Part shown: piece by piece, positions 3,791 through 25,326 of the stretch | How the letters are laid out: each line of letters begins with the position of its first letter | Numbering within the stretch: position 1 is the first letter of the stretch | Source of the DNA: Streptomyces sp. SCSIO 30461 | GTDB lineage: Bacteria > Actinomycetota > Actinomycetes > Streptomycetales > Streptomycetaceae | Direction: 5' to 3' | DNA: 64,000 nucleotides | Assembly (NCBI RefSeq): GCF_037023745.1 | Contig: NZ_CP146101.1 | Span: 7,493,501-7,557,500 of the forward strand | The notes under the pieces: model-generated | The model's input: only the letters and a program-made list of their open reading frames with translations | What the model was told of the DNA's origin: nothing | Databases searched by the model: none | Made by a program: the position numbers and the translations under genes

Positions 3791-4228
3791 ATGGGGGTCA
3801 CATACAGATACTTCGGCGCCCCCGACGGCGCCACGGCCGCCCGTGTGCCCATTTCGATGCGCCCGGAAGAGCTCGGCGGGGACGAGCTCGGCATGGGCGG
3901 GATGTTCAGCAAGATCAAGCCCGAGACGATAGCCGCGATGGTCCTCACGGGCATCCAGGGGATGCCCCTCAACAAGGTGCCGCCGCTGGAGCTGGTGGTC
4001 CTGCACCCGGACTACGCGGTGGTCAAGCTCCCCATGACGGTCGTCGACCCGCTGCGCGACATCGGCGAGGAGACGGTCGGCGCCGCCGCCTTCATCTGGT
4101 CGACGGTCCCGGACCGCGGGGGGCCGCGGGACGCTTTCAACGTGTACCAGCTGCTGCACGAGTGGCAGGACTTCAGCCACCGGCTGCATGAGGCGGGGCA
4201 TCAGCCTTATTGCCTTGTATGGCCGTGA
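3791..4228 (+). CDS. conserved hypothetical protein; integration target of the island
   Basis: A 145-residue protein (MGVTYRYFGAPDG...HQPYCLVWP) without a domain I can name; it looks like a soluble actinobacterial conserved protein. The start ATG is preceded by AGGAG. Its last 25 codons are the insertion site of the 21-kb island. The reading frame stays intact because the island supplies a replacement tail: the residues after the 23-bp core (ending YCLVWP) are encoded by codons that differ from the displaced host codons found at 25198-25217 but specify the same amino acids. Integration should therefore not alter the protein. Confidence 0.85.
   Translation: MGVTYRYFGAPDGATAARVPISMRPEELGGDELGMGGMFSKIKPETIAAMVLTGIQGMPLNKVPPLELVVLHPDYAVVKLPMTVVDPLRDIGEETVGAAAFIWSTVPDRGGPRDAFNVYQLLHEWQDFSHRLHEAGHQPYCLVWP
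4184..4206. other. left attachment core (island/chromosome junction)
   Basis: A 23-bp stretch (CTGCATGAGGCGGGGCATCA and three more bases) is identical to 25175-25197. Left of the core the copy has GC-rich host-like codons; right of it the codons are more AT-rich. The other copy shows the opposite pattern, which places the crossover inside these 23 bp. It lies within the end of the coding gene at 3791-4228, not in a tRNA. Confidence 0.88.
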
Positions 4229-4294: not shown

Positions 4295-5641
4295 TCAGGC
4301 GGCCAGGGCACATTGAGGGCACATTGGTTTTGCTGGGGGTGCTGATGTGCCCTGGTCGGCGGGCGGGTCGCCGTCGTCTTCCGCCTCGGCTTCCGTTTCC
4401 GTGAAGGCGTCGTCGATCGCCTTGCGGGTGCGGGTCTCACTGGACGGCAGCAGGTGCGTGTACGTCCGCAGCGTGAAGCCCGGGTCCGAGTGGCCGAGGT
4501 ACTCGGAGAGCGCCTTGATGCTCTCCCCTGCATCCAGGAGCACGGAGGCGTAGGCGTGACGTAGAGCGTGCATGCCGTCTTCCGGGGCCGCTTGGAGGTA
4601 GCGCGCGCCGCGCTCGCGGGGAGGGATCACGCCGGCGGCGGCCAGGGCGCGCTTCCAGTCGCCCATGTTGAAGACGCTCCGGTTGTACGCCCGCTCCTTC
4701 GCGTCGACGAAGAGGAGGCGCAAGGTCTTCGGCTCGCCGTCCGGTTTGGCCCAGGGCAGGGTGACGGCGGTCGGCGGGAACTCCTTCATGTGAGCCTTGA
4801 TGGCTGCGGCGAGCTGGGCCGACAGGGGCACTGACCGGATCTTGTTGCCCTTGGGCAGGGCGAAGACGGGCTTCGTACCGACGAGCCGTACCTGACGGTT
4901 GACGTGTATCCAGCCGCCCTTGAAGTCGATGTCCTCGACGGCGAAGCCGAACACCTCGCCCTGGCGAAGGCCGCAGCCGAAGGCGAGCTTGCCGCCAGCC
5001 TGGAAGCGCTTCGGGAGTCCGGCTATCACGGCGAGTACGCGCTCCAGCGGCCAAGGGATGATCCTCTTCTTGGTCGCGGTCGGCAGCTTGACCGACTTCG
5101 CCTTGCAGGGGTTCTTCGGCAGCAGCCCGTCCTCCACGGCCATGCCGAGGATGCTGGAGAGGATGTCGAAGATGCCCTCGATCGTCGACACTTCCAGTTC
5201 GGCGTCCTGCAGCGTGCGAATCCAACCCTGAATGATCGAGGGCTGGTTGAGGGACCGCAGCTCGCGTCGGCCGAGGTGCTCGACGATGTGGTTGCGGACG
5301 GTCGCCTCGTAGCGGAGCGCGGTCGTCGGGCCGACGGAGTTCGCATCGAGCCACTTCTGCGCGTAGGCACCGAGCGTCTGCTTCGTCTCGGCGGGGACGA
5401 CGTAGGAGCCGCGCCGGATCTCGACGTCGACCTCGGCGGCGCGATTGTCCGCCTCGGCCTTCGTGTGGAAATTCTCCTTGCGCTGCCGGCCGTCAAGGTC
5501 GCGGTAGCGGACTTGCCAGCGCTTGCCGACACCGTGGTCGGCGGTGGCGACCATCTGCCGTGTACGGCTCTTGTGTTCGCCGCACTCGGCCTCGGCGGGC
5601 TTGGGGTGGGACTTGTGCCAGCGGTCGTACACGTCAGCCAA
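4295..5641 (-). CDS. int: tyrosine site-specific integrase
   Basis: A 448-residue tyrosine recombinase that should catalyse insertion at and excision from the 3791-4228 gene. I chose the TTG start at 5641 because AGGAGG lies 7 bp upstream (at 5649-5654) and the protein then opens ADVYDRWHKSHPK; the open frame extends 85 codons further but with low-complexity, non-family sequence. There is an N-terminal SAM-like core-binding domain (about 90-190), then the catalytic domain with the first Arg in GCGLRQGE, HALRH, LGHSDPG and the nucleophile in RTYTHLL. The C-terminus is acidic and ends in a short Cys-containing tail. Its 3' end overlaps the left arm repeats. Confidence 0.93.
   Translation of the reverse strand: MADVYDRWHKSHPKPAEAECGEHKSRTRQMVATADHGVGKRWQVRYRDLDGRQRKENFHTKAEADNRAAEVDVEIRRGSYVVPAETKQTLGAYAQKWLDANSVGPTTALRYEATVRNHIVEHLGRRELRSLNQPSIIQGWIRTLQDAELEVSTIEGIFDILSSILGMAVEDGLLPKNPCKAKSVKLPTATKKRIIPWPLERVLAVIAGLPKRFQAGGKLAFGCGLRQGEVFGFAVEDIDFKGGWIHVNRQVRLVGTKPVFALPKGNKIRSVPLSAQLAAAIKAHMKEFPPTAVTLPWAKPDGEPKTLRLLFVDAKERAYNRSVFNMGDWKRALAAAGVIPPRERGARYLQAAPEDGMHALRHAYASVLLDAGESIKALSEYLGHSDPGFTLRTYTHLLPSSETRTRKAIDDAFTETEAEAEDDGDPPADQGTSAPPAKPMCPQCALAA
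4306..4352. repeat. left arm-type repeats (candidate integrase binding sites)
   Basis: Two direct copies of GGGCACATTG at 4306-4315 and 4317-4326 are spaced by 11 bp. An inverted ATGTGCCC lies at 4345-4352. They sit inside the 3' end of the integrase gene, about 100 bp from the left core. The same octamer pair with the same 11-bp period occurs at 25018-25036 near the right end, as expected for arm sites of a tyrosine recombinase. Confidence 0.65.
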
Positions 5642-6682: not shown

Positions 6683-8368
6683 ATGGAGGACTCTACGTCC
6701 CCCAGCACCACGAACACCTCGCCCACCGGCTGGCCCACTCCCGCGGTCCCCGGCGAGGGCGTCCCCTGGCGCCGCCAGGATCAGCAGGACACACGGTCCC
6801 CCGCGTCGGGGACCGTCGAGCACTCGGCGCATGTGGAAGCACACGGGGACCGTCCCCAGCCGCCTACAGATGCCGCTTTTGGGGACCGTCCCCGCGAAGT
6901 GCCCGCTGCTCGGTCCCCGCACGTCCCGGTCCCCGTATCAGCATCCGACACAAACCCGCAGGCCAGCGGCATGAAATCGGGGACCGATCCCCAAGAGACG
7001 GCAGTTGCACCAGGGGACCGTGAGCACGGTCCCCGCCAGTCTCTGGGGACCGATGGTCCCGCTGCGGGGACCGTCCAGCCGGAGGGGACGGGTCCCATCG
7101 ACGCGCGACCGGATCACGAGGCCGGTCCCCGGCCTTCTCGGGGACCGTCAGACCCCGTGAAACGGGGTTCCGGTGAAGGTGCGGAACTACTGGATGAGTT
7201 GCGGGCGGCCATCGGCAAGTACGTCGTGCTGCCCAGTGACGAGGCGCTGACCGCGGTCACCCTGTGGGTGGCTGCCACGCACATCCAGACCGCTCTGCAG
7301 CACGCGCCTCGTCTGGCAGTCGTCGGCCCGACGAAGGGCTGCGGCAAGTCCCGCGTGCTGGACGTGCTCCACGAGACCGTCCACCAGCCGATCATGACGG
7401 TGAACATGTCCACGGCGGTACTCTTCCGCGTCATCGGCAAGAACCCGCGCACGATCCTGGTGGACGAAGCCGACACCATCTTCAGCAAGGCCGGCGACAA
7501 CGAAGAACTGCGCGGTCTGTTGAACGCCGGACACCAGCGCAACCGGCCCGCCTGGCGCATCTCCGGTCCGGAGCACAAGCCGACCCCGTACCCGACCTTC
7601 GCCATGGCCGCGCTGGCCTCGATCGGCGACCTGCCCGACACAATCACGGACCGGGCGGTCGTGCTCCGCATGCAAAAGCGCAAGCCGGGCGAGAAGGTGA
7701 CCCCGTTCCGCTCGCGCTACGCCACACCACAGCTGAACGCGCTCCGGGACAAGCTGGCCGCCTGGCTGGGCCCGCTGCGCGGCACGGCCGGCCGCATGGC
7801 GCCGACCATGCCGGTGGAGGACCGGGCGGCGGACACCTGGGAACCGCTGGTCATCATCGCCGACCTGGCCGGCGACCACTGGCCCGCGAGCGCCCGTGCG
7901 GCCTGCGTGGCGATGACCCGGTACGAGGCCGTCAAGGACGAGCAGACCAACCTGAAGACGCGGCTGCTGCGCGACATACACCGCATCTTCGAGGCACACG
8001 GCAACCCCGAAGCCCTGTCCTCCCTGGATCTGGTCACCACCCTGCTCCAAGACCCCGACGCACCCTGGGCAGAGCACGGCACCAACGGGCTCAACGCCTA
8101 CCACCTGGGCAGAATGCTCCGGGACTTCGACATCCGCCCGGCCAACTACCGGTTCGACAAGGGCAGGCAGGCCAAGGGGTACGCCCGTAACCGGTTCCTC
8201 GACAGCTGGGCCCGACACTGCCCCGACCTCACCGACACGGCGCCCGCCCCCGCGCACGACGCCACACCCGCGCACCTGCCAGCCCAGGGCAAGCCGCCCA
8301 CCGCCCCGGCGGGCCAGCTGCCCATCTGCCTGCCCGGCGGCCCCACCGGCCCCAAACGCGCCCGCTGA
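6683..8368 (+). CDS. DUF3631 ATPase, candidate replication protein of the element
   Basis: A 561-residue protein with a good ribosome site (GGAGAGGAACGCCT before ATG). Residues 1-160 are disordered and rich in Gly, Pro, Asp and Arg, and their DNA carries the octamer repeats described separately. Residues 165-440 match the DUF3631 P-loop pattern: Walker A VVGPTKGCGKS (about 213-223), Walker B TILVDEAD (about 256-263), then SIGDLPDTITDRAVVLRMQKR with a likely Arg finger. DUF3631 proteins are often encoded next to plasmid replication or integrative element functions as helicase-like ATPases. I infer a role in replication or maintenance; no initiator of the RepSA type is seen. Confidence 0.8.
   Translation: MEDSTSPSTTNTSPTGWPTPAVPGEGVPWRRQDQQDTRSPASGTVEHSAHVEAHGDRPQPPTDAAFGDRPREVPAARSPHVPVPVSASDTNPQASGMKSGTDPQETAVAPGDREHGPRQSLGTDGPAAGTVQPEGTGPIDARPDHEAGPRPSRGPSDPVKRGSGEGAELLDELRAAIGKYVVLPSDEALTAVTLWVAATHIQTALQHAPRLAVVGPTKGCGKSRVLDVLHETVHQPIMTVNMSTAVLFRVIGKNPRTILVDEADTIFSKAGDNEELRGLLNAGHQRNRPAWRISGPEHKPTPYPTFAMAALASIGDLPDTITDRAVVLRMQKRKPGEKVTPFRSRYATPQLNALRDKLAAWLGPLRGTAGRMAPTMPVEDRAADTWEPLVIIADLAGDHWPASARAACVAMTRYEAVKDEQTNLKTRLLRDIHRIFEAHGNPEALSSLDLVTTLLQDPDAPWAEHGTNGLNAYHLGRMLRDFDIRPANYRFDKGRQAKGYARNRFLDSWARHCPDLTDTAPAPAHDATPAHLPAQGKPPTAPAGQLPICLPGGPTGPKRAR
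6744..7147. repeat. 14 octamer repeats GGGGACCG/CGGTCCCC (candidate iterons)
   Basis: Exact copies start at 6744, 6794, 6808, 6845, 6881, 6911, 6927, 6979, 7013, 7027, 7045, 7066, 7123 and 7140, in both orientations. Some form inverted pairs (for example 7013/7027 and 6794/6808); others extend to GGGGACCGTCCCC. About 0.01 copies would be expected by chance in 400 bp. They lie entirely inside the disordered 5' coding part of the DUF3631 gene. Confidence 0.75.
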
Positions 8369-8393
8369 CCCGCTTCCCCTGGGTCCGTATCAC

Positions 8394-8515
8394 TGCGTCG
8401 CATCCGTCCCCGCGCAGGTCAGCGCGGGGACGGATGTCCTCACCGGGACGGACTTCTCCGTACCTGCCCGAGTGTCCGTACCTGCCCTGACCAGGCATGG
8501 GACGGATGCGACGCA
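8394..8515. repeat. nested inverted repeats, candidate oriT
   Basis: An outer perfect 17-bp inverted repeat (TGCGTCGCATCCGTCCC at 8394-8410 and its complement at 8499-8515) encloses an inner 14-bp hairpin (8402-8415 and 8422-8435, 6-bp loop). The left arms overlap, so the hairpins are mutually exclusive. TCCGTACCTGCCC is directly repeated near 8457 and 8475. The cluster fills the gap between the DUF3631 gene and mobC, where an origin of transfer would be expected. The inner hairpin could alternatively be a terminator, but no T-run follows. Confidence 0.55.
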
Positions 8516-8555
8516 CGTGACACACGTTCCGCCCCCTCACCACCGGAGCACTCCG

Positions 8556-9158
8556 ATGCACGAACAGCACCACGAACACCCCATGCCCCAGGAACAGATG
8601 GCCACCACCCCCGTCACACGCGCAGCAAGTTGTCGGGTAAGGAGTCCTTACCCGACCCCCGCCCCAGAGGAGGCGGAGGCATCCGGCGCAGGGGCACCGG
8701 AGTCGACCGGCCCGGGGGAGCCGACCGGGACTGGGGGCAGCGAGCCGTCGTCGAGCGTGCCGCGGCAGCCGGCGCAGCGTCGCCGTCTGCGTGACAAGCA
8801 GCTGCGCGAGCACCGCGTCCACCCCCGCTACAACGACGACGAATTCGCCCTCGTCCAGAACGCCGCCGCCCTGAGCCGCATGCAGCCCGGCGGCTACGTC
8901 GCCGAGTGCGCGCTCGCCGCCGCCCGTGCCGACGACCCCACCGCAGCCGTCGCCGACTACCGCGCCATGGTCAAGGCGCTGTTGGCCGCCAACCGGCAGC
9001 TCGGCGGTATCGGCAACAACCTCAACCAGCTCACATGGCACCTCAACAGGGACGGCTCCTGGCCCCACCCCGACACCGTCCAACGGCTCCTGGAGCGCGT
9101 CGAGGCATCCATCGCCGAGGTGGACACCGCCGTCGCCCAGATCACCGAGGGGCGGTGA
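8556..9158 (+). CDS. mobC: MobC-type relaxosome accessory protein
   Basis: A 200-residue protein whose second half fits MobC proteins, which help relaxases open the origin of transfer. It has the arginine-rich REHRVHPRYNDDEFALVQNAA segment (ribbon-helix-helix-like), GGYVAECALAAA, and the family hallmark RQLGGIGNNLNQLTWHLN. The first 75 residues are low complexity. The start at 8556 has GGAGC upstream; an earlier in-frame GTG at 8472 is possible. A start downstream of the 25-bp palindrome at 8632 would give the conserved domain alone. The relaxase gene begins 5 bp after its stop. Confidence 0.85.
   Translation: MHEQHHEHPMPQEQMATTPVTRAASCRVRSPYPTPAPEEAEASGAGAPESTGPGEPTGTGGSEPSSSVPRQPAQRRRLRDKQLREHRVHPRYNDDEFALVQNAAALSRMQPGGYVAECALAAARADDPTAAVADYRAMVKALLAANRQLGGIGNNLNQLTWHLNRDGSWPHPDTVQRLLERVEASIAEVDTAVAQITEGR
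8632..8656. repeat. perfect 25-bp palindrome
   Basis: GTCGGGTAAGGA, one G, then the exact complement TCCTTACCCGAC. It is inside the low-complexity 5' part of the mobC frame. A perfect 12-bp inverted repeat next to mobilization genes suggests a relaxase/MobC recognition hairpin or an operator. Confidence 0.6.
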
Positions 9159-9162
9159 GCCA

Positions 9163-10839
9163 TTGATACCGAAGATCATCCTCGGCAAGGGGCCCCACGC
9201 CACACGCCGCACGATCGGCTACCTCTTCGGCAAAGGCCGGGCCAGCGAACACATCGACCCGCACCTGGTGGCCTCCTGGAACGACTTCGCCCCCGACCCT
9301 GGCCGCAGCCCCCACCGCGACCCCAAGGACGTGGAGGCCCAGCTCGCCGCACAACTCGACCAGCCCGTGAAGATGCTCGGCGACAAAGCACCCAAGCACA
9401 CCGTGTGGCACTGCCCCGTCCGTGCCGCCCCCGAAGACCCGATCCTCACCGACACCCAGTGGGGGGATATCGCCCGCCGGATCGTGGCCGCCGCCGGCAT
9501 CGCCCCCGAAGGCGACGAGGAAGCCTGCCGCTGGGTGGCCGTCCGCCATGCCGACGACCACATCCACATCGCCGCCACCCTCGTACGCCAGGACGGTCGC
9601 CGCCCCCAGCGCGACTTTGACCAGCGGGCCGTCCAGCGCGAAGCCCGCCAGATCGAGGTCGACTACGGACTGAGGCGACTGAAGCCGGGCGACGGCACCG
9701 CCGCCAAACGCCCCACCAGCAAGGAGCACTTCAAGGCCAAACGCCTGGGCCAGGAAGCGGCCACCCGCGAGATCCTGCGCCTGCGGGTCCGCCGCGCCGT
9801 CGCCGCCGCGGCCGACGAGGCCGAGTTCTTCGCCCTGCTGGACGCCACCGGCGTTGCCGTGCGCCTCAAGCTCGGCCCGTCCGGCGACGCCCTCGGCTGC
9901 AACTTCGCTCTGCCCGGCGACACCAATGACAAGGGCGAGCCGGTCTTCTACTCCGGCTCCACGCTCGCCCCCGACCTCTCCCTCCCCAACATCCGCCAAC
10001 GCCTCGTTACCACCAGCCCCGAACCTGTCACCGTCCGCCCGGGCAACCTGTGGCACCAGGCCACCGCCGCCACCGAACGCATCCCCTACCACCTCACCCA
10101 CAGCGACGACCCCACGGCTCACGGACAGCTGGTCGCGCTCGGCGCCGCACTGGACCTCCTGCCGGCCACCGGACCGGCGGTGCTCAAGGCCGAACTCGAA
10201 CAGGCCGCGGCCGCCTTCGAGCGCGCCACCCGCTCCCGCATCGCCGCCGACCTCGACAGCACACGCGTCCTGCGCCGCAGCGTCCAGGCGATCTGGCGCG
10301 ACCGCCCCCAGGACAGGGACGGGGCCGGATTCGCGATGCTTCTGGATGCCGCACTCACCGCGGTGGCGTTCGCGATTCACTGGCACCGCATCCGTCAGCA
10401 CGCACAGCAGGAGGCGGCAGCCGAGCAGGCCCTCCTCCACTTGCAGGTGGCGTACGCGCAGGTCGCCGAGCCGGTCCTGGTCGGCCTCGCCAGCCGGGCG
10501 CCCAGCCCGCAGACCAAACTCCGCTTCGCCCACCACCTCCAGCAGGCGGTACCGGAACACTCCGAGCGCATCCTGGCCGACTCCGCCTGGGACGCACTCG
10601 CCACCGTGCTCGCCGAGGCCGAAGCAGCAGGACACAACGCAGCCACCGTCCTCGACCAGGCGCTCGGACAGCGCACCCTGGATGACGCCCACAGCCCCGC
10701 CCGCGCACTGACCTGGCGCATCCGCCGCCTCGGCGAACGCCATCCGCCCAGTCCACGAGCCGAGGCAGCCCGGACTACGCCCGTCCAGCCTGCGGCAGCG
10801 GCTCCTCCCTCACAGCCCCATTCGGCACGGCGGCGCTGA
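9163..10839 (+). CDS. relaxase (MobA/VirD2-like mobilization nuclease)
   Basis: A 558-residue relaxase that would nick the element's oriT and pilot the strand during transfer. The start chosen is TTG at 9163, giving IPKIILGKGPHATRRTIGYLFGKGRA; GAGGGGCGG lies upstream and the mobC stop is 4 bases before. The three-histidine metal motif is VRHADDHIHIAATL (His129, 133, 135). Tyr20 in TIGYLF is the best candidate nicking tyrosine. After residue 200 the protein is helical and of unknown role. Its stop codon abuts the stop of the convergent flavoprotein gene without a gap. Confidence 0.9.
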   Translation: MIPKIILGKGPHATRRTIGYLFGKGRASEHIDPHLVASWNDFAPDPGRSPHRDPKDVEAQLAAQLDQPVKMLGDKAPKHTVWHCPVRAAPEDPILTDTQWGDIARRIVAAAGIAPEGDEEACRWVAVRHADDHIHIAATLVRQDGRRPQRDFDQRAVQREARQIEVDYGLRRLKPGDGTAAKRPTSKEHFKAKRLGQEAATREILRLRVRRAVAAAADEAEFFALLDATGVAVRLKLGPSGDALGCNFALPGDTNDKGEPVFYSGSTLAPDLSLPNIRQRLVTTSPEPVTVRPGNLWHQATAATERIPYHLTHSDDPTAHGQLVALGAALDLLPATGPAVLKAELEQAAAAFERATRSRIAADLDSTRVLRRSVQAIWRDRPQDRDGAGFAMLLDAALTAVAFAIHWHRIRQHAQQEAAAEQALLHLQVAYAQVAEPVLVGLASRAPSPQTKLRFAHHLQQAVPEHSERILADSAWDALATVLAEAEAAGHNAATVLDQALGQRTLDDAHSPARALTWRIRRLGERHPPSPRAEAARTTPVQPAAAAPPSQPHSARRR

Positions 10840-12144: not shown

Positions 12145-12834
12145 TCAGGTGCCGATGAGGCGGCTGTCGAATCCGTCGCGCAGAAGGCGCTCGTAAGCGT
12201 CATACACATCCCCCGGTACGTCCTGCTCGACGGCGAAGCCGAGCTTCGGGTACTCGATCACCCGTTGCAGGTCGCCGACGAGCATGTCGACGACCAGCTT
12301 CTCGTCGCCGATGGACTTGATGTAGTCGTCCAACTCCAGCGGCTCGGAAGCGCACACGACCTCAGCCTCGGGCCACAGCTTGCGGGAGGTCGCATACGAG
12401 CGGCGTTCCATGTACGGCTTGGAGATGAGCAGCAGCGACTCGACCGCGATGCCGGCCTCGGCCAGCATCTCGCGGGAGAAGGTGACGTTCTGGCCAGTGT
12501 TGGCCGCCTTGGGCTCGACCAGGATCGCCTCGTCCGGCACCCCGAGGCTCAGGGCGTGCTCGCGGTAATGGACGGCCTCACCGCGTGGGAAGCGGGCCCG
12601 GGTGGTGGGGCTGTTGCCCCCGCTGAACACCACGACCGGGAAGAGGCCGGCGCGGTAGAGGTCTGCGGCCGTGGTGGCCACCCCAAGGTCGTGGCTGCCC
12701 AGGCCGATCGCCGCCGAGCAGGGACGCTGCTCGTGGCCCATCTGGTGGTAGTTCCAGATCAGCGTCGCGTCGTGGAACTGCTCGTCGGTGATCTGGCGTT
12801 GCTCGTGCTCCGGCACTGGCACTCCCTGGCTCAT
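12145..12834 (-). CDS. YdcF family protein
   Basis: A 229-residue YdcF/DUF218 protein. Visible motifs: AAIGLGSHDLGVATTAADLYRAG, VVFSGGNSPTTRARFPRGEA, EPKAANTGQNV and LLISKPYMERRSYA. E. coli YdcF binds S-adenosylmethionine; others are envelope-associated. There is no membrane segment here, so it is likely cytosolic. The ATG overlaps the stop of the upstream HTH regulator by 4 bp. Its place in an operon with WbqC and a flavoprotein suggests a small-molecule modification cassette. Confidence 0.85.
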   Translation of the reverse strand: MSQGVPVPEHEQRQITDEQFHDATLIWNYHQMGHEQRPCSAAIGLGSHDLGVATTAADLYRAGLFPVVVFSGGNSPTTRARFPRGEAVHYREHALSLGVPDEAILVEPKAANTGQNVTFSREMLAEAGIAVESLLLISKPYMERRSYATSRKLWPEAEVVCASEPLELDDYIKSIGDEKLVVDMLVGDLQRVIEYPKLGFAVEQDVPGDVYDAYERLLRDGFDSRLIGT

Positions 12835-13874
12835 CCCTGCTGGCCCTTTCGGATGCCCTCGATACTGTGCAGCTGGTGGCTCAACCCGTACTGGCGGGCC
12901 ACCTGTGCCGCCTGATCGAGGACGGACAGCCCATCATTCCGGGTCGCCGCATCCGACAGAAGGATGTGCCCGTATGCGGTGTCCAACCGCACCCGCTGCA
13001 TCGGGGAGTCGACCGTGCCGGTGGTGCGCGCGATGTCGATGTAGTGCAGGGCCTGCTTCAGGTCGCCGACGCCTCGGTGGGCCAGGGCCAGCTTTTGGTG
13101 GGCAACAGACCAGTCCTCCGGCTCACCCAGGTCCTCGAAGGAGCGAGTGGCCTCCACCATGACGCCGGTGGCGTACCCGTTGTTGCCCTCCTTGCTCAGT
13201 GCCGTACCGACCCAGAGCCGGGCCCTGGCACGGTCGCGAGGGCTCAAGCGCTCGTCCGCTGCAAGGAGTTCGTACTGCCGGGCAGAGGCTTCCAGCTGGC
13301 CGGACATTTCCTGAACGACGGCGAGGGAGAGCTCGATCTGAGCCACTCGACGCGGGATATCGAGTTCGGTGAACATGCCGCGGGCGGTCATGTAGGAGTG
13401 CCGGGCGGAGAGCGGGCCGAGGATCGCGCCCTGGTCACGTTGGAGATCGCCGAGCAGCACGAGGGAACGGCCGTAGAAGTAAAGGCCCTTGTCATCCAGG
13501 TGATGGGGGTCGTGCCGGGTCAGCCAGCGGTTCAACAGTGAGGTGGCGAAGGGAAAGTTCTGGCGGCTGACACAGACCACAGCCCGCTCGATGTCCTCGG
13601 TCCAGGTCTCGTAGTCCGCCGGCCGCACGCTCTTCCTGTCGGGGAAGATCAGCGCCTCGAACCTGGCCTGAGCAGCGGAGTCCGCGCGGGCCAGTGCCGT
13701 GTCGAGGATGGCCTGGGTATCCGGGCGGGGATGGGTTGCTGTACCGAGGCTCTCCCACTTGGCGACCGTGCGCAGTGCGACACCGAGGTGCTCTGCGAAT
13801 GCGCGCGTGCTCATACGCAGCGCGGCGCGCAGGGCGCTCGCCTCCCGGCCTGTCCATTGCTGCACACTGACCAC
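12831..13874 (-). CDS. HTH regulator with TPR-like C-terminal domain
   Basis: A 347-residue protein starting at GTG 13874 (GGAGG 6 bp upstream). Residues 10-60 form a Cro/C1-type helix-turn-helix (MSTRAFAEHLGVALRTVAKWE). The rest is helical with TPR-like repeats (for example HQKLALAHRGVGDLKQALHYIDIA). This architecture is common in Streptomyces regulators tied to nearby small-molecule operons. It heads the operon with YdcF, WbqC and the flavoprotein and is divergent from the gene at 13994, so it may control both directions. Confidence 0.87.
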   Translation of the reverse strand: MVSVQQWTGREASALRAALRMSTRAFAEHLGVALRTVAKWESLGTATHPRPDTQAILDTALARADSAAQARFEALIFPDRKSVRPADYETWTEDIERAVVCVSRQNFPFATSLLNRWLTRHDPHHLDDKGLYFYGRSLVLLGDLQRDQGAILGPLSARHSYMTARGMFTELDIPRRVAQIELSLAVVQEMSGQLEASARQYELLAADERLSPRDRARARLWVGTALSKEGNNGYATGVMVEATRSFEDLGEPEDWSVAHQKLALAHRGVGDLKQALHYIDIARTTGTVDSPMQRVRLDTAYGHILLSDAATRNDGLSVLDQAAQVARQYGLSHQLHSIEGIRKGQQG

Positions 13875-13993
13875 GGATGACCTCCCTCCGTCATGTATGG
13901 AAGCACTCTCGGTGACGACGTGGGGCGGGAAGTGCAACGGAAGTACAACAGCAGGTCATTTCGAGGCCGTTCACGACGGCCGACGCTGTGGGC

Positions 13994-15287: not shown

Positions 15288-16448
15288 ATGATCGAGACGA
15301 ACACCAGCGCCAAGAGGCCGAGGCGGAAAGCAGCTCCGCAGCTCGTGGCCAGCCCGTTTCTCGCCCAGTACCTCCTAGTCCAGCCCGGCCGGGCGGCCGG
15401 CGTGCGCATCCCGGAGGTCCGCTACGAGGAGCTGTGGGCCGCGGGCGCGGAAGGCCGATCCGTCCCGGACTGGCTGGCCGACGCGGCGCGGGAAGCGTGG
15501 GGGACCGAGTTGCCCGCGTCGCCGGTCGGTGATGTCGTCCTCGTCCGCGAGCGGTCCCGGTACGGGTACGGCAAGGCGTCATGGGAGATCAACCTCGGCT
15601 GTGACTACGACTGCGAGTTCTGCTACCTCGGGGAGAAGCGGTTCGAGGGCCTGGACTGGGCCGGTAAGCAGGCGCTGCTGCAGACGCTGAGGGACGCCGG
15701 TGTCTTGTGGTTGCAGATCACCGGCGGTGAGGCGCTGATCGACCGCGAGTTCGGCGCGGCGTACGAGTACGCCCACCAGCTCGGGATGATGGTCCAGGTC
15801 TCGTCCAACGGTTCCTCGCTGCGGAAGCAGCCGATCCGGGACCTGTTCGCCCGCCACCGGCCGTACCGACTGACCCTGAGCGTCTACGGAGCCACCGCCG
15901 AGACGTACGACAAGGTGACGCGGAACCGCGGGGCGTTCGGCCGGTTCCTGATGGGCCTGGACGCCGCCCGCGAGGACAGGTTGCCGGTCCGCCTGAACGT
16001 GATCGTCTCGGACGGCAACGCGCACGAGACAGACGCGATGGTGTGCCTCGCGAAGTCGTACGGCTTCCCGCACCAGGTCTTCACGAACATGTCGCCCACG
16101 ATCGATGGCGAGGCGAACCCCCTGGCGACGCAGGCACTGGACCATCTCAAAGCCCGTAGCGTCTTCACCGGCTGCAACGCCGGCCACACGTTCTTCCACG
16201 TCAACCCGCACGGCATCGCGTCGATCTGCAAGGTCGGTCGCGACCCAAGCGTGAACCTCATCACTGAGGGCGTCGAAGCCCTCCCCCGACTCGGCGCGGT
16301 CGCCGAGTCCCTACAGCTCCGCACCGGTGGATGCTCCGGCTGCACGAAGGTCGGCACGTGCCGCACGTGCCGACCGCTGGCCAGGCTCTACCAGGAGGCG
16401 GGGGACCGACGAGAGCTCTACTGCCAACATGGAGGTTACGGATCATGA
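15288..16448 (+). CDS. radical SAM/SPASM enzyme, candidate peptide maturase
   Basis: A 386-residue protein with GGAGG 5 bp before the ATG. Residues 20-90 look like a small peptide-binding domain (strand, strand, two helices), possibly RRE-like. The radical SAM core carries the 4Fe-4S motif CDYDCEFC (Cys105, 109, 112) and LQITGGEAL. The C-terminus has Cys296, 314, 349, 352, 358, 361 and 379, the spacing of a SPASM auxiliary cluster domain. SPASM enzymes commonly modify ribosomal peptides. The stop codon overlaps the ATG of a 70-residue peptide gene by 4 bp, the typical arrangement for an enzyme and its precursor. The chemistry is unknown. Confidence 0.85.
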   Translation: MIETNTSAKRPRRKAAPQLVASPFLAQYLLVQPGRAAGVRIPEVRYEELWAAGAEGRSVPDWLADAAREAWGTELPASPVGDVVLVRERSRYGYGKASWEINLGCDYDCEFCYLGEKRFEGLDWAGKQALLQTLRDAGVLWLQITGGEALIDREFGAAYEYAHQLGMMVQVSSNGSSLRKQPIRDLFARHRPYRLTLSVYGATAETYDKVTRNRGAFGRFLMGLDAAREDRLPVRLNVIVSDGNAHETDAMVCLAKSYGFPHQVFTNMSPTIDGEANPLATQALDHLKARSVFTGCNAGHTFFHVNPHGIASICKVGRDPSVNLITEGVEALPRLGAVAESLQLRTGGCSGCTKVGTCRTCRPLARLYQEAGDRRELYCQHGGYGS

Positions 16449-16657
16449 CTCCGCCCACCGCACTCCTGACCCCGCCTCGCGAACCGGTCATGCTCACCAT
16501 CGGCCGACGTCCGGCGGACAACCCGACCAGCGCCCTGCCGGTGCCGCTGATCGCCGCGTCGATCAAGGACGACGAGTTCCAGATCATCGCCGACCTGGAC
16601 GAGGCTGCCGAGGGCGCCGAGTGCAGCTGCTCGGCTGGGGATGACCAGCCGTACTAG
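16445..16657 (+). CDS. 70-residue peptide, candidate RiPP precursor
   Basis: A short protein whose ATG overlaps the radical SAM stop by 4 bp. Residues 1-40 are Pro-rich leader-like; residues 41-52 are acidic and amphipathic (KDDEFQIIADLD); the end carries Cys60-Ser61-Cys62-Ser63 followed by AGDDQPY. This is the layout of a ribosomally made peptide: leader with a recognition segment, then a small Cys/Ser core. The FQIIADLD segment is reminiscent of leader motifs in FxLD lanthipeptides, but no lanthipeptide synthetase is present. A GC-rich terminator follows, so the operon ends here. Confidence 0.7.
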   Translation: MTPPTALLTPPREPVMLTIGRRPADNPTSALPVPLIAASIKDDEFQIIADLDEAAEGAECSCSAGDDQPY

Positions 16658-16705: not shown

Positions 16706-16740
16706 TGCCGCCCCGGCCTTACCCTGGCCGGGGCGGCATT
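16706..16740 (+). terminator. intrinsic terminator after the radical SAM operon
   Basis: A 13-bp perfect stem (TGCCGCCCCGGCC at 16706-16718, complement at 16726-16738) with a 7-base loop and a short TT tail. It separates the peptide gene from the phosphotransferase. Confidence 0.8.
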
Positions 16741-17797: not shown

Positions 17798-18790
17798 ATG
17801 CAGCTCGCCGACCATTTCAATGAGTTTTTGCGCACCACGGTGAACCTGGGCCAAGTCAAGCTCGACCTTCTCGACACCAGGGTGGAGGCGATCTACCGGG
17901 CGTTGAAGGCGGACGAGGAAATCGGCTCGCTGGTCCTGGGCAAGATTCCGCAGGGCTCATGGGCGCATCGCACGATCATCGACCCGGTCGGCGGGACGGA
18001 GTTCGATGCTGACGTGATGCTGCTGATGGCCGAGAACCCGGACTGGTCACAGAGCCCGAAGACGTATATCGAAGAGGTGTATGCGGCCCTGCATCGACAC
18101 AGCATCTACAAGGACATGCCGCACTCGCGTAAGTGCCGATGTGTGCGGCTGGTCTACAGCAACTCCATGCACGTGGACATCGTTCCTTACGTGATGCTAG
18201 TCGACGGTCGAGAGGTCATCGTCAACCGCGACGAGGACACCTGGGAGAACACCAACTCGCAGGGCTTCAGCACTTGGATGCGCACTCAGGACCAGATCGC
18301 GCAGGGGAATCTGCGCAAGGTCATCCGGTTGATGAAATTCCTGCGCGACCACAAGGGATCGTTCACCGGGACGCGGTCGGTGATCCTGACGACGCTGCTC
18401 GGCAACCAAGTCCATGCCTACAAGAAGTTCTCCGATCCGGGCTACTACCGTGATGTGCCAACTGCGCTCTTGCACATCGTCGCTGACCTGGACACCTATC
18501 TGCAGGCCAACGAGATCAAGCCCTCGGTCGCCGACCCCTCAGGGTCTGGGCTGACCTTCGACCACCGATGGGAGCAGAACACGTACTCCTACTTCCGCGA
18601 CCGCATCCACAAGCACGCCGCCGAGATCCACGACGCTTACCACGCCGAGGACAAGGACACGAGCCTACGGCTGTGGCAGAACCTTTTCGGCCCCGAGTTC
18701 AAGGCCCCGGTTTCGGCAACCAGCGGCTCCAAGTTCCCCGCGGCTGCCACCACGGTCACCGCTGTCGCGCGGCCTGGTCGCGCCGGGTGA
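17798..18790 (+). CDS. CBASS cyclic-oligonucleotide synthase (CD-NTase)
   Basis: A 330-residue cGAS/DncV-like nucleotidyltransferase. The active-site pattern is intact: Gly53-Ser54 in KIPQGSWAHRT, Asp70 and Asp72 in EFDADVML, and the third acid Asp127 in MHVDIVPYV. On phage infection such enzymes make a cyclic nucleotide that activates an effector, here probably the HNH-SAVED protein at 20639-21847. The C-terminus ends PGRAG; in type II CBASS the C-terminal residue is conjugated by Cap2, and a terminal Gly fits. ATG with GAGGA 6 bp upstream. The next gene starts within its stop codon. The cyclic product cannot be deduced. Confidence 0.92.
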   Translation: MQLADHFNEFLRTTVNLGQVKLDLLDTRVEAIYRALKADEEIGSLVLGKIPQGSWAHRTIIDPVGGTEFDADVMLLMAENPDWSQSPKTYIEEVYAALHRHSIYKDMPHSRKCRCVRLVYSNSMHVDIVPYVMLVDGREVIVNRDEDTWENTNSQGFSTWMRTQDQIAQGNLRKVIRLMKFLRDHKGSFTGTRSVILTTLLGNQVHAYKKFSDPGYYRDVPTALLHIVADLDTYLQANEIKPSVADPSGSGLTFDHRWEQNTYSYFRDRIHKHAAEIHDAYHAEDKDTSLRLWQNLFGPEFKAPVSATSGSKFPAAATTVTAVARPGRAG

Positions 18791-20550
18791 GCGGCGGCAA
18801 GAACCGACCCGCCCCGACGGACTGGCAGAGAGAGGCCCTGGCCGAGCTGCGCGAGGCCGCGGCCGAACAGCCTGACGTGCTGCGTCTGGTGGGAGTTCCA
18901 GCCCGCGGCCAGAACGGTGTGCTCAGGGTGACGCTGCGGCTTCACACAGGGCCCTTGGCCACTGCTGACGGCGGCTTGGTTCTGCAGGAGCACGAGGAGT
19001 TCGTCCTGACCTTGCCGGCCTCACCGCTGTCCGCAACCACCGTCGAAGTGGAGCACTGGAGGTTCGCCGGCTACCCGCATGTCCTCCAGGGACGCCGACT
19101 GTGCATCTTCCTGGATCCCGCCCGCGAGTGGGATCCGCTGCGCGGGGGCATACGGGCGTATCTGAACCGGCTGTGGTCCTGGCTGAGCGACGCGGCAGCG
19201 GGCCAGTTCAACGCATCAAAGGCGATGTACCACGCCGTCGGCGGAGTGCTTCACCAAACGCCCGGAACCCCGACGCTGGTCGTACGCGTTCCCGGCCCTG
19301 ACCAGCGAATCCAGACTGGCTACCTGATCGCGCGCACCGAGCACCGACTAGACCTGGCCTACAGTCCGCCCCCGGAAGGCAGGGCCGTACGGGTGCCAGT
19401 AATCACCATTGCGGGAGCGCTGCCGCTCGGCGGCGGCTCAACCTTTGCCGAGCTGCTGACCTACGTGGACAACCCTCCGTTCGATCGCCAGAGGAGAAGC
19501 TCCCCGCAGGCAGTCGCCCAGTCTCCGGCGATCCTGACCACGCTCGCGGCCAGTGCGGCCCGCAACCCCGATGGCTCGCCGCAGTACCTGATCCTGGCAG
19601 TCCCGCACCCTGCGGGCGGCCCGCCCAATCTCTTGGGTGCACGTCTTCCCGCGCCTACCGCGGATGCACTGCGGCGCATGGCCCACGAGCAGGGTTCCGC
19701 GCTGAACATCGACGCCTCCCAGATCCGCCCGGACCTACTGATCGAATGGTGCCCTGTGTCCGATGAACGGCCTGCCGTGACGACACGTCGCGATGACGGA
19801 AGCCTCATCGGGGGCTTCTTGGGGAAACACGTGCATGTCTGGGGCTGCGGCGGCCTTGGCTCCTGGATCGCCGAGTTCGTCGTCCGTGGCGGCGCCTCAC
19901 AGGTGACGGTGTGCGACCCCGGAACAGTCACCGGCGGACTGCTGGTCCGGCAGAACTACGTCGAGGCTGACGTTGGAGCCTCCAAAGCCCAAGCCCTGGC
20001 CCGACGGCTGCGAGCAGTGGATGACACCGTCGCGGTCCACGTCCACGACGGCGTACTGCCCGACGCTACAGCTCTGGCAGGCGCCGAAGTCATTATCGAC
20101 GCGACCGTGAGCATTGCCATGGGCCACATCCTGGATCGCCTCGCGGCTAGCGGGGGACGCCACCCGGTCCTGGCTCAGGTAGCCACCGACACCCGCACCG
20201 GCACCTTGGGCCTGCTGAGCGTCTCCGCGCCCACCACCGCACAGGGGCCCAGCAGCATCGACACTGCCGCCGGGAAGATCGTACTGGCCGACCCCGCCCT
20301 GGAGCTTTACCACCGCCTGTGGCAGGACACCCCGGACGGCGACGAACTTGTACCAACCCGCGGCTGTTCGGTGCCCACCTTCCACGGGGCATCGGCCGAC
20401 CTGGCTGCTGTCGCCGGAACGCTGACGTCCCTCCTGGGGATGCACCTGATCACTCCCGGCTCGGGCACACATCTGATCGCGCTCCCTCACGCAGCCGGAT
20501 CGCCCCATCACCATTTCCTGGCCCACGACCCGACACCGACCACGCCCTGA
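18787..20550 (+). CDS. cap2: CBASS Cap2, E2-E1 fusion conjugating enzyme
   Basis: A 587-residue ThiF-family protein with GTG start overlapping the CD-NTase stop by 4 bp. Residues 1-150 form a ubiquitin E2-like domain with likely catalytic Cys106 in GRRLCIFLDPAREWDP. Residues 345-520 form the E1 adenylation domain (GCGGLGSW at 353-360, VTVCDPGTV, RQNYVEADVGASKA). The E1 catalytic Cys is likely Cys527 in TRGCSVPTFHG. Cap2 attaches the CD-NTase C-terminus to targets and primes the enzyme. No Cap3 (JAB deconjugase) gene is adjacent, which departs from the full type II operon. Confidence 0.9.
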   Translation: MSGGKNRPAPTDWQREALAELREAAAEQPDVLRLVGVPARGQNGVLRVTLRLHTGPLATADGGLVLQEHEEFVLTLPASPLSATTVEVEHWRFAGYPHVLQGRRLCIFLDPAREWDPLRGGIRAYLNRLWSWLSDAAAGQFNASKAMYHAVGGVLHQTPGTPTLVVRVPGPDQRIQTGYLIARTEHRLDLAYSPPPEGRAVRVPVITIAGALPLGGGSTFAELLTYVDNPPFDRQRRSSPQAVAQSPAILTTLAASAARNPDGSPQYLILAVPHPAGGPPNLLGARLPAPTADALRRMAHEQGSALNIDASQIRPDLLIEWCPVSDERPAVTTRRDDGSLIGGFLGKHVHVWGCGGLGSWIAEFVVRGGASQVTVCDPGTVTGGLLVRQNYVEADVGASKAQALARRLRAVDDTVAVHVHDGVLPDATALAGAEVIIDATVSIAMGHILDRLAASGGRHPVLAQVATDTRTGTLGLLSVSAPTTAQGPSSIDTAAGKIVLADPALELYHRLWQDTPDGDELVPTRGCSVPTFHGASADLAAVAGTLTSLLGMHLITPGSGTHLIALPHAAGSPHHHFLAHDPTPTTP

Positions 20551-20638
20551 CCCATCCCATGTGCACTGGAGGATGCGCTGTCGCCAAGGCGAACGGGAAC
20601 GCAGTAACTGGCTATCGGATCGCCAGCGAGTGCCAGCG

Positions 20639-21847
20639 TCAGGGAATCTCCAAGGCTCGTCGATATCCGCTCGGCGTGCGGTCGTAGAGCACCAGCGCCG
20701 GGTGCACTTGGCGGTCGCGTACCCGCCCCAGGCTTACCCCGGCCGAGAGCGGCACCGCGAACAGCACGTGCAGGCGCCGCACCTGCTTGGCGCTCGCCTC
20801 CAGATCCGCGAACAGCGACCGCAGCACCTCCTGGAACTGAGTCAAGGAAACGCGATTGCGCAGCACGTCCGGCGCGGCGGCAACATCAACAGGGCTGATG
20901 CGGTACCGGCGCAGTCCGGCGAGCTGGTGTGGGACCTCCTCGGGCTGGATCGTGCCTGAGATGTTCAGCACGAGCACCGCCTCATGCGCGGGCGGCTGGT
21001 CAACGTCGAGGTGGACCGCGAAGCCGACCGCAGGCGCTGTCGAAGACCACGACCAGGACTCGTCTTCGCGGTGACGCTGATAGACGTCGGTGGGCACGGT
21101 GTCGTCCAGACGGGATCCGAGGTAGACAAGCAGTGGCAGCCGGGCGAAGCCGAAAACACTCAAGTGCGCAACTTTGTCACGGGCGATACCGCGGTTGAGC
21201 TGGTTGTCGATGACCTCGTCGATGACGGCGGTGGCTGCCCGGTAGTAGGGCGAGCCTCCAGTCTCCTCGTCGGGGATGTCACGCAGATCGATCGTCATCT
21301 CGCCGGCCACGTGGCGCAGGTCGATCTCCACGCCGTGCCGCTCATAGGACTCCAGGAATAGTGGGAACCGGTCCCCGGAGGTGATCACCGCGGTAGCGGC
21401 GGTCTGCCGGGTCAGCTCGACTTCCTGGCCACGCACCCGGCCCACCATCCGCAGCACCGTGGTCGCCCGGTCGTCGGCCAGCCCGGTGACGTGCTTGATG
21501 CGGTCCTCGTGAGCGCGTTTGAGCGCGCGCAGCCGTTCCACGGTGAAAACGTCCAGGGTGCCGGAAGCATCGATCTCGTCGTGCTCGTCGGCACAAACCA
21601 GCATCAAGTTGTCGGCGGTGTCGCGCTCCACCAGGTCGTGTTCACCGCGCGGGGAGCCTGCGGTCTGTTGCTGGCCGACGATGTGTGCCAACTCACCCTG
21701 CCGTACGGTGCGGCCCGTCATCCCACCATCGAGCAGATACCTGTTGCAGATCGCGCACCGACCACCACTACGCACCCACACCTCCAAGCGCACAGGCGCT
21801 GGGATGGCCCGTCTCCCGCCGCCCTGCCCGGCAGCCTTCCTCGCCAT
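20639..21847 (-). CDS. cap5: CBASS effector Cap5, HNH endonuclease-SAVED fusion
   Basis: A 402-residue protein whose ATG has GGGAGG upstream. Residues 25-110 form an HNH nuclease with structural Cys31/Cys34 (CAIC), His55 in ELAHIVG, Asn80 in DNLMLVC and His89 in CADEHDEID. Residues 180-402 fit a SAVED sensor domain (HEAVLVLNISGT, RRLHVLFAVPLSAGVSLGRV near the end). Cap5 effectors bind the CD-NTase product through SAVED, oligomerise and degrade double-stranded DNA. It is convergent with cap2 with 88 bp between stop codons, so it has its own promoter, unlike the common single operon. Confidence 0.9.
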   Translation of the reverse strand: MARKAAGQGGGRRAIPAPVRLEVWVRSGGRCAICNRYLLDGGMTGRTVRQGELAHIVGQQQTAGSPRGEHDLVERDTADNLMLVCADEHDEIDASGTLDVFTVERLRALKRAHEDRIKHVTGLADDRATTVLRMVGRVRGQEVELTRQTAATAVITSGDRFPLFLESYERHGVEIDLRHVAGEMTIDLRDIPDEETGGSPYYRAATAVIDEVIDNQLNRGIARDKVAHLSVFGFARLPLLVYLGSRLDDTVPTDVYQRHREDESWSWSSTAPAVGFAVHLDVDQPPAHEAVLVLNISGTIQPEEVPHQLAGLRRYRISPVDVAAAPDVLRNRVSLTQFQEVLRSLFADLEASAKQVRRLHVLFAVPLSAGVSLGRVRDRQVHPALVLYDRTPSGYRRALEIP

Positions 21848-22100
21848 ACGTTGCCTCCCGTCTCGGAGCACGCCTGCCGGAACCATTGTGCGTTCCCGTC
21901 CACGGCCTCCTGGTACAGCCCGGTTTGATTCGCCACTCCCGACAACGACGGGGCCGGGCCTTCTGACCGCGCAACCGCTCTCGATTTCTGGGAACGATCT
22001 CCAGCAAGTCGGGAAGCAATCTTCAGGACCTGTGGTGCCGCAAGTCAGAAACATTCGTGAACAGCCTTCGACCACGCGGGCGTTCTGGGATGATGTTTGT

Positions 22101-24652: not shown

Positions 24653-25174
24653 GGTTGAACTCGCGGTGGCGGGTGGCAATTGGAGCGTGCGAAGTCTTCC
24701 AGCTGTGCGCCAGGCCAACCAGATTCCGCCCGATCGCATCTGGTTGGCCAGCACTGACAGCTGTATCCACGGGACTGCGCGCATGCAGTACCTACCACCC
24801 TGGCGGCATGCGCACGGGGGGGGATCGATCAATACGCCCTCTTGGAGACCGTCTACCGGCCCGCCTAAGTGATCAGTACCGTCCGCCAACTACGTGAGGC
24901 TGGCGTCGTGACGACGGAACCTCGTGCCATCAACGTCAAGACACGAGTGACCCTGGCGGCGGCACCTCCCACCACCAACCCGTCGGCCGAGCAGGGCGCC
25001 CTTTGGGGTGAGCCCGAGGGCACATCCAGGGCACATGAGCCCGGGAAACGGCGTAGACCAGTGAGAACTACCGAGAGACGTTTCCCCTGGTCAGCACACA
25101 CATCGCCAAGAATCCCCAGGTCAGCGCCCTCCCGCCCCCAATCGCTGCATGAATGGCAGGATTTCAGCCATCGT
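24653..25174. other. right-end noncoding region of the island
   Basis: About 520 bp with no convincing gene between the STAND NTPase and the right core. Open frames cross it but have no protein-like features. It contains the right arm repeats (25018-25036). The bases directly left of the right core (25144-25174) mimic the 3' codons of the target gene with AT-richer synonymous codons, as expected of the element's attP. Confidence 0.6.
25018..25036. repeat. right arm-type repeats
   Basis: GGGCACAT at 25018-25025 and 25029-25036, in the same 11-bp period as the left pair at 4306/4317. They are about 140 bp inside the right core. They are likely integrase arm-binding sites. Confidence 0.62.
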
Positions 25175-25197
25175 CTGCATGAGGCGGGGCATCAGCC
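25175..25197. other. right attachment core (island/chromosome junction)
   Basis: The 23 bp are identical to 4184-4206. They are followed by the displaced host 3' end of the target gene (GTACTGCCTGGTGTGGCC then TGA at 25216-25218). Joining 4183 to the core and then to 25198 would restore the empty site. Confidence 0.88.
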
Positions 25198-25326
25198 GTA
25201 CTGCCTGGTGTGGCCCTGATCGCAGGGAGCCGGCTCGGGCGGGAGTACGGCTCCGAGGTCGGCGCGAGTGGCTGCCAAAGCGGCTACGAGCCACCGCGGT
25301 CGATCCATAGCCGCCATGCCGGAGCC

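Follow-up and report, generated by a model that had tools for sequence, protein, structure and literature searches.

A candidate radical SAM peptide cassette with an exchangeable kinase or acetyltransferase partner, carried by putative mobile elements and phages of Actinomycetota

The locus

The window (the whole stretch of 64,000 nucleotides of Streptomyces sp. SCSIO 30461 analysed here) contains three consecutive genes on one strand, encoding a radical SAM/SPASM-type enzyme, a small peptide and an APH-like kinase, which are collected in Table 1 together with the features surrounding them. In a first-pass annotation, made from the sequence, the first two genes had been proposed as a candidate RiPP system; their coordinates (15288..16657) proved exact, and the enzyme stop does overlap the peptide start, as had been stated. 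The pair of enzyme and peptide has stood; the kinase or acetyltransferase gene, the mobile surroundings and the occurrence on phages had all been missed.

Table 1. Features of the cassette and its surroundings, in window positions
Feature	Position	Strand	Details
Left 76-nt direct repeat, putative attachment site	4153..4228	+	repeat search
Tyrosine integrase of the putative element	4295..5632	-	PF00589, 61.3 bits
DUF3631 protein, MobC/NikA-like protein and a third protein without Pfam hit	7157..10839	+	profile search
Divergent HTH-type protein	12831..13937	-	HTH_23 only, 16.3 bits, below cut-off
Radical SAM/SPASM-type peptide maturase	15288..16448	+	386 aa; ATG 15288, stop 16446-16448
Probable N-terminal leader-binding (RRE-like) domain	15339..15557	+	residues ~18-90; predicted model and structure alignments
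CX3CX2C motif (C105/C109/C112)	15600..15623	+	motif and alignment
Seven-cysteine SPASM-like region, C296 to C379	16173..16424	+	alignment
Precursor peptide, 70 aa	16445..16657	+	ATG 16445, stop 16655-16657; ATGA overlap with enzyme
Conserved core CSCSAGDDQPY (Cys, CX3D, QP, Tyr)	16622..16654	+	homologue comparison
Strong hairpin, 12-base arms, no T run	16707..16737	+	between peptide and kinase genes
APH-like kinase, 267 aa	16779..17582	+	possible alternative GTG start 6 bases upstream
Complete type II CBASS	17798..22075		cyclase (CD-NTase) +, E1-E2 +, SAVED-HNH effector -
Right repeat copy, 87% alike, putative attachment site	25144..25219	+	repeat search

Homologous units were collected by a genome scan, the best 80 of 223 places being taken as loci. 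Together with further genomes, viral contigs, one phage and one plasmid, these formed a pool of 194 rows, which fell to 149 once identical enzyme ends had been removed, rows without the C-terminal end of the enzyme being left uncounted. As two rows from the same genome (L174 and L190) have identical peptide DNA, they were counted once, leaving 148 distinct loci.

The enzyme

Radical_SAM (PF04055) was the sole Pfam family reported in the enzyme, with 41.9 bits versus a cut-off of 29.5, and the Pfam SPASM model gave no reported match at E up to 1. The CX3CX2C motif and the seven C-terminal cysteines recognized at first pass (positions 296, 314, 349, 352, 358, 361 and 379) are present, and all ten cysteines are invariant in an alignment of 62 sequences. 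The SPASM spacing is CX9-15GX4C, CX2CX5CX3C, C, the fourth interval thus being CX3C; in the enzyme this interval, the last of the second group, is CX2C. Among the matches shown (the best 25 of 47 and the best 25 of 40 families), the enzyme lies far under every curated NCBIfam cut-off, with 52.2 bits versus 625 for the StsB model (NF045574), 32.2 versus 300 for SkfB, 27 versus 850 for AlbA, 59.1 versus 265 for MftC, 39.5 versus 381.35 for PqqE and 42.7 versus 180 for the curated viperin model, while the PADLOC model pVip gave 50.4 bits.

In the predicted structure (pLDDT 82.9), the N-terminal part is made up of three strands followed by helices (strand-strand-strand-helices at residues 19-83). 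SkfB and SuiB could be aligned with this model from residue 17-18 onwards, over nearly the whole length, and nearly all the other structure rows begin near residue 90, two NifB rows starting at 31 and 35. CteB, which likewise has a leader-binding domain, aligned only from residue 91-92. As far as the model goes, the first 90 residues of the enzyme are probably a leader-binding domain.

The precursor peptide and its core

A peptide gene directly follows the enzyme gene in 148 of 148 distinct loci, which answers in the affirmative the check suggested at first pass, namely whether the peptide is kept beside homologous enzymes. The calls were made over the 149 rows, 138 by a pattern devised after examples had been seen and 11 by eye, one row being the duplicate. 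Judged by these loci, the pairing of enzyme and peptide is beyond chance.

The best-conserved portion of the peptide is its C-terminal core, which coincides with the CSCSAGDDQPY end already pointed out. Comparison of the window peptide with 22 homologues of the same length gave 75 synonymous versus 10 non-synonymous codon differences in the last 12 codons, and 161 versus 393 in codons 1-43. By this measure the core is under strong purifying selection and the leader is free of it; a fixed core with a drifting leader is the reverse of most antagonistic RiPPs. Across 81 peptides, those of the window, of the paralogue and of 79 of the 80 scan loci, one Cys is invariant and is followed, 1-3 residues on, by [D/E][D/S/N][N/Q/V/A][P/V][Y/H/F]; the search pattern itself required the Cys and most of the tail letters. 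Departures occur among the eleven tails identified by eye, such as SSDQVYNN, GNDNPY and DDNPN.

Two core forms can be distinguished: a long one, CxCxAGDD[N/Q]PY and its kin, and a short one, GC[G/S/N][D/E/N]DNPY, often with one additional residue. After removal of the duplicate, and with L166, filed as long by the script, moved to the short group, 106 of the 107 long cores have an acid ([D/E]) at the CX3 spacing, the exception (L135) having CX4D, and all 41 short cores have Asp at CX2; in most cores [N/Q]P-Tyr comes after the acid. On these spacings, a thioether between the conserved Cys and the acid (CX3[D/E] or CX2D) may tentatively be favoured as the chemistry, and since the short cores lack CX3D, such a rule requires two ring sizes. 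The class V lanthipeptide route, phosphorylation of Ser/Thr followed by elimination, is improbable here, given that Ser and Thr are missing behind the Cys in most short cores. The window peptide and four others matched no NCBIfam or Pfam model, nor did six more peptides searched in NCBIfam only, and the UniRef label of one homologue (P0125), 'ATP-grasp-modified RiPP', found no support in NCBIfam.

Fit between enzyme and core

Several enzyme residues change with the form of the core (L166 being treated as short in these counts). At position 170, all 22 short-core rows with data have E/D, 16 further short-core rows being without that part of the enzyme, and none of the 94 long-core rows does; position 172 is L in 23/23 and 4/94, position 235 is acidic in 34/39 and 0/105, and position 264 is E in 37/39 and 2/106 short-core and long-core rows, respectively. 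In the enzyme model all four fall within strands predicted for the radical SAM barrel. Columns outside the barrel strands (383, 384, 1, 284 and 252) separate the core types equally well or better, and therefore part of the signal reflects clade and length, partly through gaps, columns 383, 384 and 1 being at the ends of the enzyme. On a tree of 144 rows built with FastTree, the distribution of the short core requires 4 changes, and short cores form two separate clades in an IQ-TREE tree of 79 rows, in which one deep fork is weak. As residues of the barrel strands track the type of core, the peptide is the probable substrate of the enzyme. This covariation is the best available evidence, and gives strong grounds for believing that the enzyme acts on the peptide core. 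The candidate RiPP system first proposed has thus gained support from the pairing, from the covariation of enzyme and core and from the alignment of the N-terminal domain with SkfB and SuiB.

The partner gene

The third gene varies between loci. In the 80 scan loci the gene after the peptide encodes an APH-like kinase (61), a GNAT (15), both (3) or neither (1), and in the 148 distinct loci the corresponding figures are 101 with the kinase only, 5 with kinase and GNAT, 38 with the GNAT only and 3 with neither, one further locus running into a contig end. The kinase of the window scored 18.1 bits with Pfam APH and a copy in another locus (L073) 24.1 bits, versus a cut-off of 23.2. No convincing PDB relative was found by sequence (best E 0.33); a search by fold did yield one, the predicted model (pLDDT 95.9) resembling APH enzymes and choline kinases. 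The protein combines the APH/choline kinase fold with the catalytic Lys, Glu, HxDxxxxN and Asp, where K52, E67, H159, N166 and D178 are invariant and D161 nearly so. For the alternative partner, the GNAT domain PF00583 was detected in two proteins, with 28.4 and 31.5 bits versus a cut-off of 20.7.

The identity of the partner is reflected in the tail of the peptide. All 106 loci with a kinase have a tail Tyr, while in the 41 loci without one the residue is His (27), Phe (6), Asn (3) or Tyr (5), that is, Tyr has been replaced in 36 of 41, the contig-end locus, also Tyr-tailed, being omitted from these counts. The five that keep Tyr have either a GNAT (L077, L094 and L124) or neither partner (L100 and L170, the latter having just an enzyme fragment); L164, with no kinase and no GNAT, has a Phe tail. 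Fisher's test of kinase versus Tyr gave 2e-29 for 107 and 41 loci taken as independent, a value which overstates the tie, because the loci are related and kinase presence and Tyr each change about 5 times on the tree. Since Tyr tracks the kinase, the Tyr near the C-terminus is probably its phosphate acceptor, and the simplest reading of these comparisons, for which there is a strong case, is that the APH-like kinase would phosphorylate the peptide at this Tyr.

Between the peptide and kinase genes lies the hairpin that had been read as a terminator. A strong hairpin is indeed there, and the feature is a recurrent one, the 100 nt 3' of the peptide stop folding with z below -2 at 63 of 80 sites (those of the window and 79 scan loci), compared with 2 of 40 control windows within the enzyme gene. 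As it precedes the kinase gene and has no T run, the hairpin need not mark the end of the operon, and may attenuate read-through rather than close the unit.

The element and its cargo

The 76-base repeats delimit about 21 kb of the window (4153-25219), a putative integrative element which would carry the cassette. Besides the integrase and the three proteins at 7157..10839, the third of which we take to be a relaxase, they enclose a gene for an HTH_17 protein. Flavoprotein, WbqC-like and DUF218 genes of the element recur beside the cassette in relatives. Near its right end (24233-24484) there are two tandem copies, 73% alike, of a 126-base unit.

The type II CBASS is, by sequence comparison, neighbour cargo on the same putative element, separate from the cassette. 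With an E limit of 0.001, none of the CBASS models matched enzyme, peptide or kinase. The cassette is also unlikely to have CBASS as its own system, since relatives carry other genes in the slot directly behind it: a different CBASS with a SAVED-TIR-JAB effector in L042 (12550-16792), perhaps the mark of a defence exchange slot, a PDC-S37/helicase-like gene in L035, a HerA-like gene in L096 and a methyltransferase/specificity gene in L104. In a selection of ten slot ORFs, picked by eye from five loci and without a control set, PADLOC models matched seven at 1e-8 and none matched the other three.

The divergent HTH-type protein of the window, a possible regulator, belongs to a cluster with members in 18/80 scan loci. 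Upstream of the enzyme, 34/80 loci have HATPase_c_2 genes and 34/80 have divergent HTH-type genes (for instance L043 7552-8001 and L062 5902-7191; the HTH-type one that was tried had no Pfam hit), and may be regulators. The absence of an adjacent protease or exporter, already remarked on at first pass, holds in the window and extends to the relatives, as no such family was seen to recur beside the cassette when 1174 ORFs around 80 loci were clustered and read by eye; one ABC-transporter cluster occurs in 6/80 loci and an MFS-like cluster in 4/80.

Phages, plasmids and distribution

The isolated Streptomyces phage Success carries the whole cassette as gp03-gp02-gp01 (L137 7013-9127), respectively the enzyme (45%), a 38-aa peptide with GCGDDNPYN and the kinase (41%); it also encodes a tyrosine recombinase. 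The three genes, annotated as oxidoreductase, hypothetical protein and kinase, are located at the genome end, and gp10, about 4 kb off, is annotated as a metalloprotease. The enzyme is further encoded on fifteen IMG/VR contigs, some of them near-copies, with a kinase partner in 7 and a GNAT in 8, and in six viral contigs that were scanned, with proteins chosen by hand, an endolysin lies in the flank of five and a portal gene in that of the sixth. Of the eight plasmid records that match, one is chromosome-sized (11.85 Mb) and another, phiDSM40276, is a linear element of 20.9 kb. In the scan loci, an integrase, mobilisation or phage gene was found in the fetched flank of at least 22/80, a lower bound because few marker queries were used, and phage structural or lysis genes in that of only 3/80.

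The scan loci belong to Streptomyces, Kitasatospora, Frankia, Nocardiopsis, Glycomyces, Catellatospora, Amycolatopsis, Actinomadura and others. With E limited to 1e-30, the enzyme was detected in 56/295 genomes for the genus and in 17/394 for the class (5 of 137 genera); for the phylum, at the stricter E of 1e-40, the figure was 6/396 (1 of 236 genera). A list of 935 proteins resembling the enzyme at E up to 1e-10 includes some outside this family.

Comparison with known systems

SkfB, the sporulation killing factor maturase, is not known to have a kinase or GNAT partner, and the window enzyme is 16% identical to it (PDB 6efn). The StsB family sactipeptide maturase (NF045574) is, like the predicted cassette enzyme, of the radical SAM/SPASM type and matures a small peptide. 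Ranthipeptide or PapB-type thioethers, PapB having the spacing CX3D/E, share the CX3[D/E] of the long cores; here, in contrast, short cores have CX2D, and there is one motif per peptide. In paeninodin-type lasso peptides a kinase of the cluster, which belongs to another family than the cassette kinase, modifies the C-terminal residue of the RiPP, a Ser; these products are of a different RiPP class, and Tyr is the residue predicted here. One article (PMC12360287) describes anti-phage lanthipeptides of Actinomycetota, intracellular RiPPs adjoining defence systems in Streptomyces. They differ from the cassette in chemistry, and an anti-phage effect of the latter is conjectural; no lanthipeptide synthetase was seen by eye to recur near it in the ORF clusters of the 80 loci.

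In the literature searched, mostly without subscription journals, neither the core strings nor a description of the cassette was found, nor any paper that names a precursor peptide together with both a radical SAM enzyme and an aminoglycoside phosphotransferase. The cassette appears, therefore, to be an undescribed family of ribosomal peptide products, whose new features with respect to radical SAM RiPPs are the exchangeable kinase or acetyltransferase partner and the mobile carriage.

Proposed mechanism and alternatives

We consider it fairly probable that the unit is a three-gene RiPP cassette of mobile elements and phages, in which the core is modified, the Tyr is phosphorylated and the product stays in the cell. 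The precursor would be translated through the ATGA overlap, the hairpin possibly leaving it more abundant than the kinase. Its leader would then dock on the N-terminal RRE-like domain of the enzyme, so that the radical SAM/SPASM centre could alter the C-terminal core, most likely by forming the Cys-acid thioether. In a further step the APH-like kinase would phosphorylate the Tyr, lineages lacking it being mostly Tyr-less and most of these having a GNAT. The weakest step is the last, in which the product would act within the cell that makes it and so help the host of the element, for instance in countering phages. The lack of a conserved protease or exporter, the near-fixed core and the phage carriage make an intracellular product the most likely outcome. 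An intracellular effector would also be in keeping with the defence neighbours, an association counted without a control set, and its purpose is a matter of speculation. The fullest version, an intracellular RiPP class of actinobacterial phages and elements with a Cys-Asp crosslink and a Tyr phosphate (or a GNAT modification) which protects the host from competing phages, we hold to be doubtful. If true, it would amount to a RiPP defence other than lanthipeptides and, to our knowledge, to the first Tyr-phosphorylated radical SAM peptide.

The exchange of kinase and GNAT could instead reflect self-immunity, the partner phosphorylating or acetylating a toxic peptide product and so inactivating it, much as in antibiotic resistance or in toxin-antitoxin systems. 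APH and GNAT proteins are of antibiotic-inactivating types and replace each other, the fold matches of the kinase include the corramycin phosphotransferase, a kinase that confers resistance to a peptide antibiotic, and the unit travels on mobile elements and phages. However, loss of the kinase mostly brings an exchange of the Tyr, which would leave the toxin free unless a GNAT steps in, one locus (L164) has neither partner, and no conserved exporter was seen by eye; we regard self-immunity as rather unlikely. Nor need the reaction be a thioether: an oxidative decarboxylation or a C-C bond at the C-terminal aromatic residue, yielding a cofactor or signal as with mycofactocin or PQQ, is suggested by the presence of AhbD, MftC, NirJ and BlsE, several of them decarboxylases, among the nearest models, and by the near-fixed C-terminal end, reminiscent of PqqA and MftA. 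Such a reaction seems unlikely, as the scores lie far under the cut-offs (65 versus 500 and 59 versus 265 bits) and stem mainly from the shared barrel, while the aromatic position varies (Tyr, His, Phe, Asn) and has one further residue behind it in many short cores, and the Cys never varies.

That the peptide stays unmodified, as a small regulator or partner of an enzyme whose substrate, for instance a nucleotide, is to be sought elsewhere, would suit the weak viperin similarity of the enzyme and a CxC-DD tail able to hold a metal. It is nevertheless very unlikely given the probable RRE-like domain, which aligns with SkfB and SuiB, a viperin score of 42.7 bits against a cut-off of 180, and barrel-strand residues that switch with the core type. 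The upstream HATPase and divergent HTH-type genes, each in 34/80 loci, might further recall a housekeeping or developmental Streptomyces peptide present on mobile DNA only incidentally, which is hardly probable in view of the patchy spread (56/295 genus, 17/394 class and 6/396 phylum genomes), the phages and plasmids that act as carriers and the MGE markers flanking at least 22/80 loci.

On the preferred reading, that of a mobile cassette with an intracellular modified product, a substrate and a reaction open to testing could be assigned to hundreds of enzymes in actinobacteria, and the ties of kinase to Tyr and of barrel residues to core length would translate into exact predictions for mass spectrometry. 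Furthermore, carriage by phages and elements, together with CBASS or other defence neighbours, would make a role in phage conflict testable in Streptomyces. The chromosome of the strain analysed here (8.05 Mb, one contig) bears a second unit at 290 kb, 50% identical over its larger piece, in which the enzyme is spread over two frames, the partner is a GNAT and the peptide ends in AECSCDAGDDNPH (L004 1340-3572).
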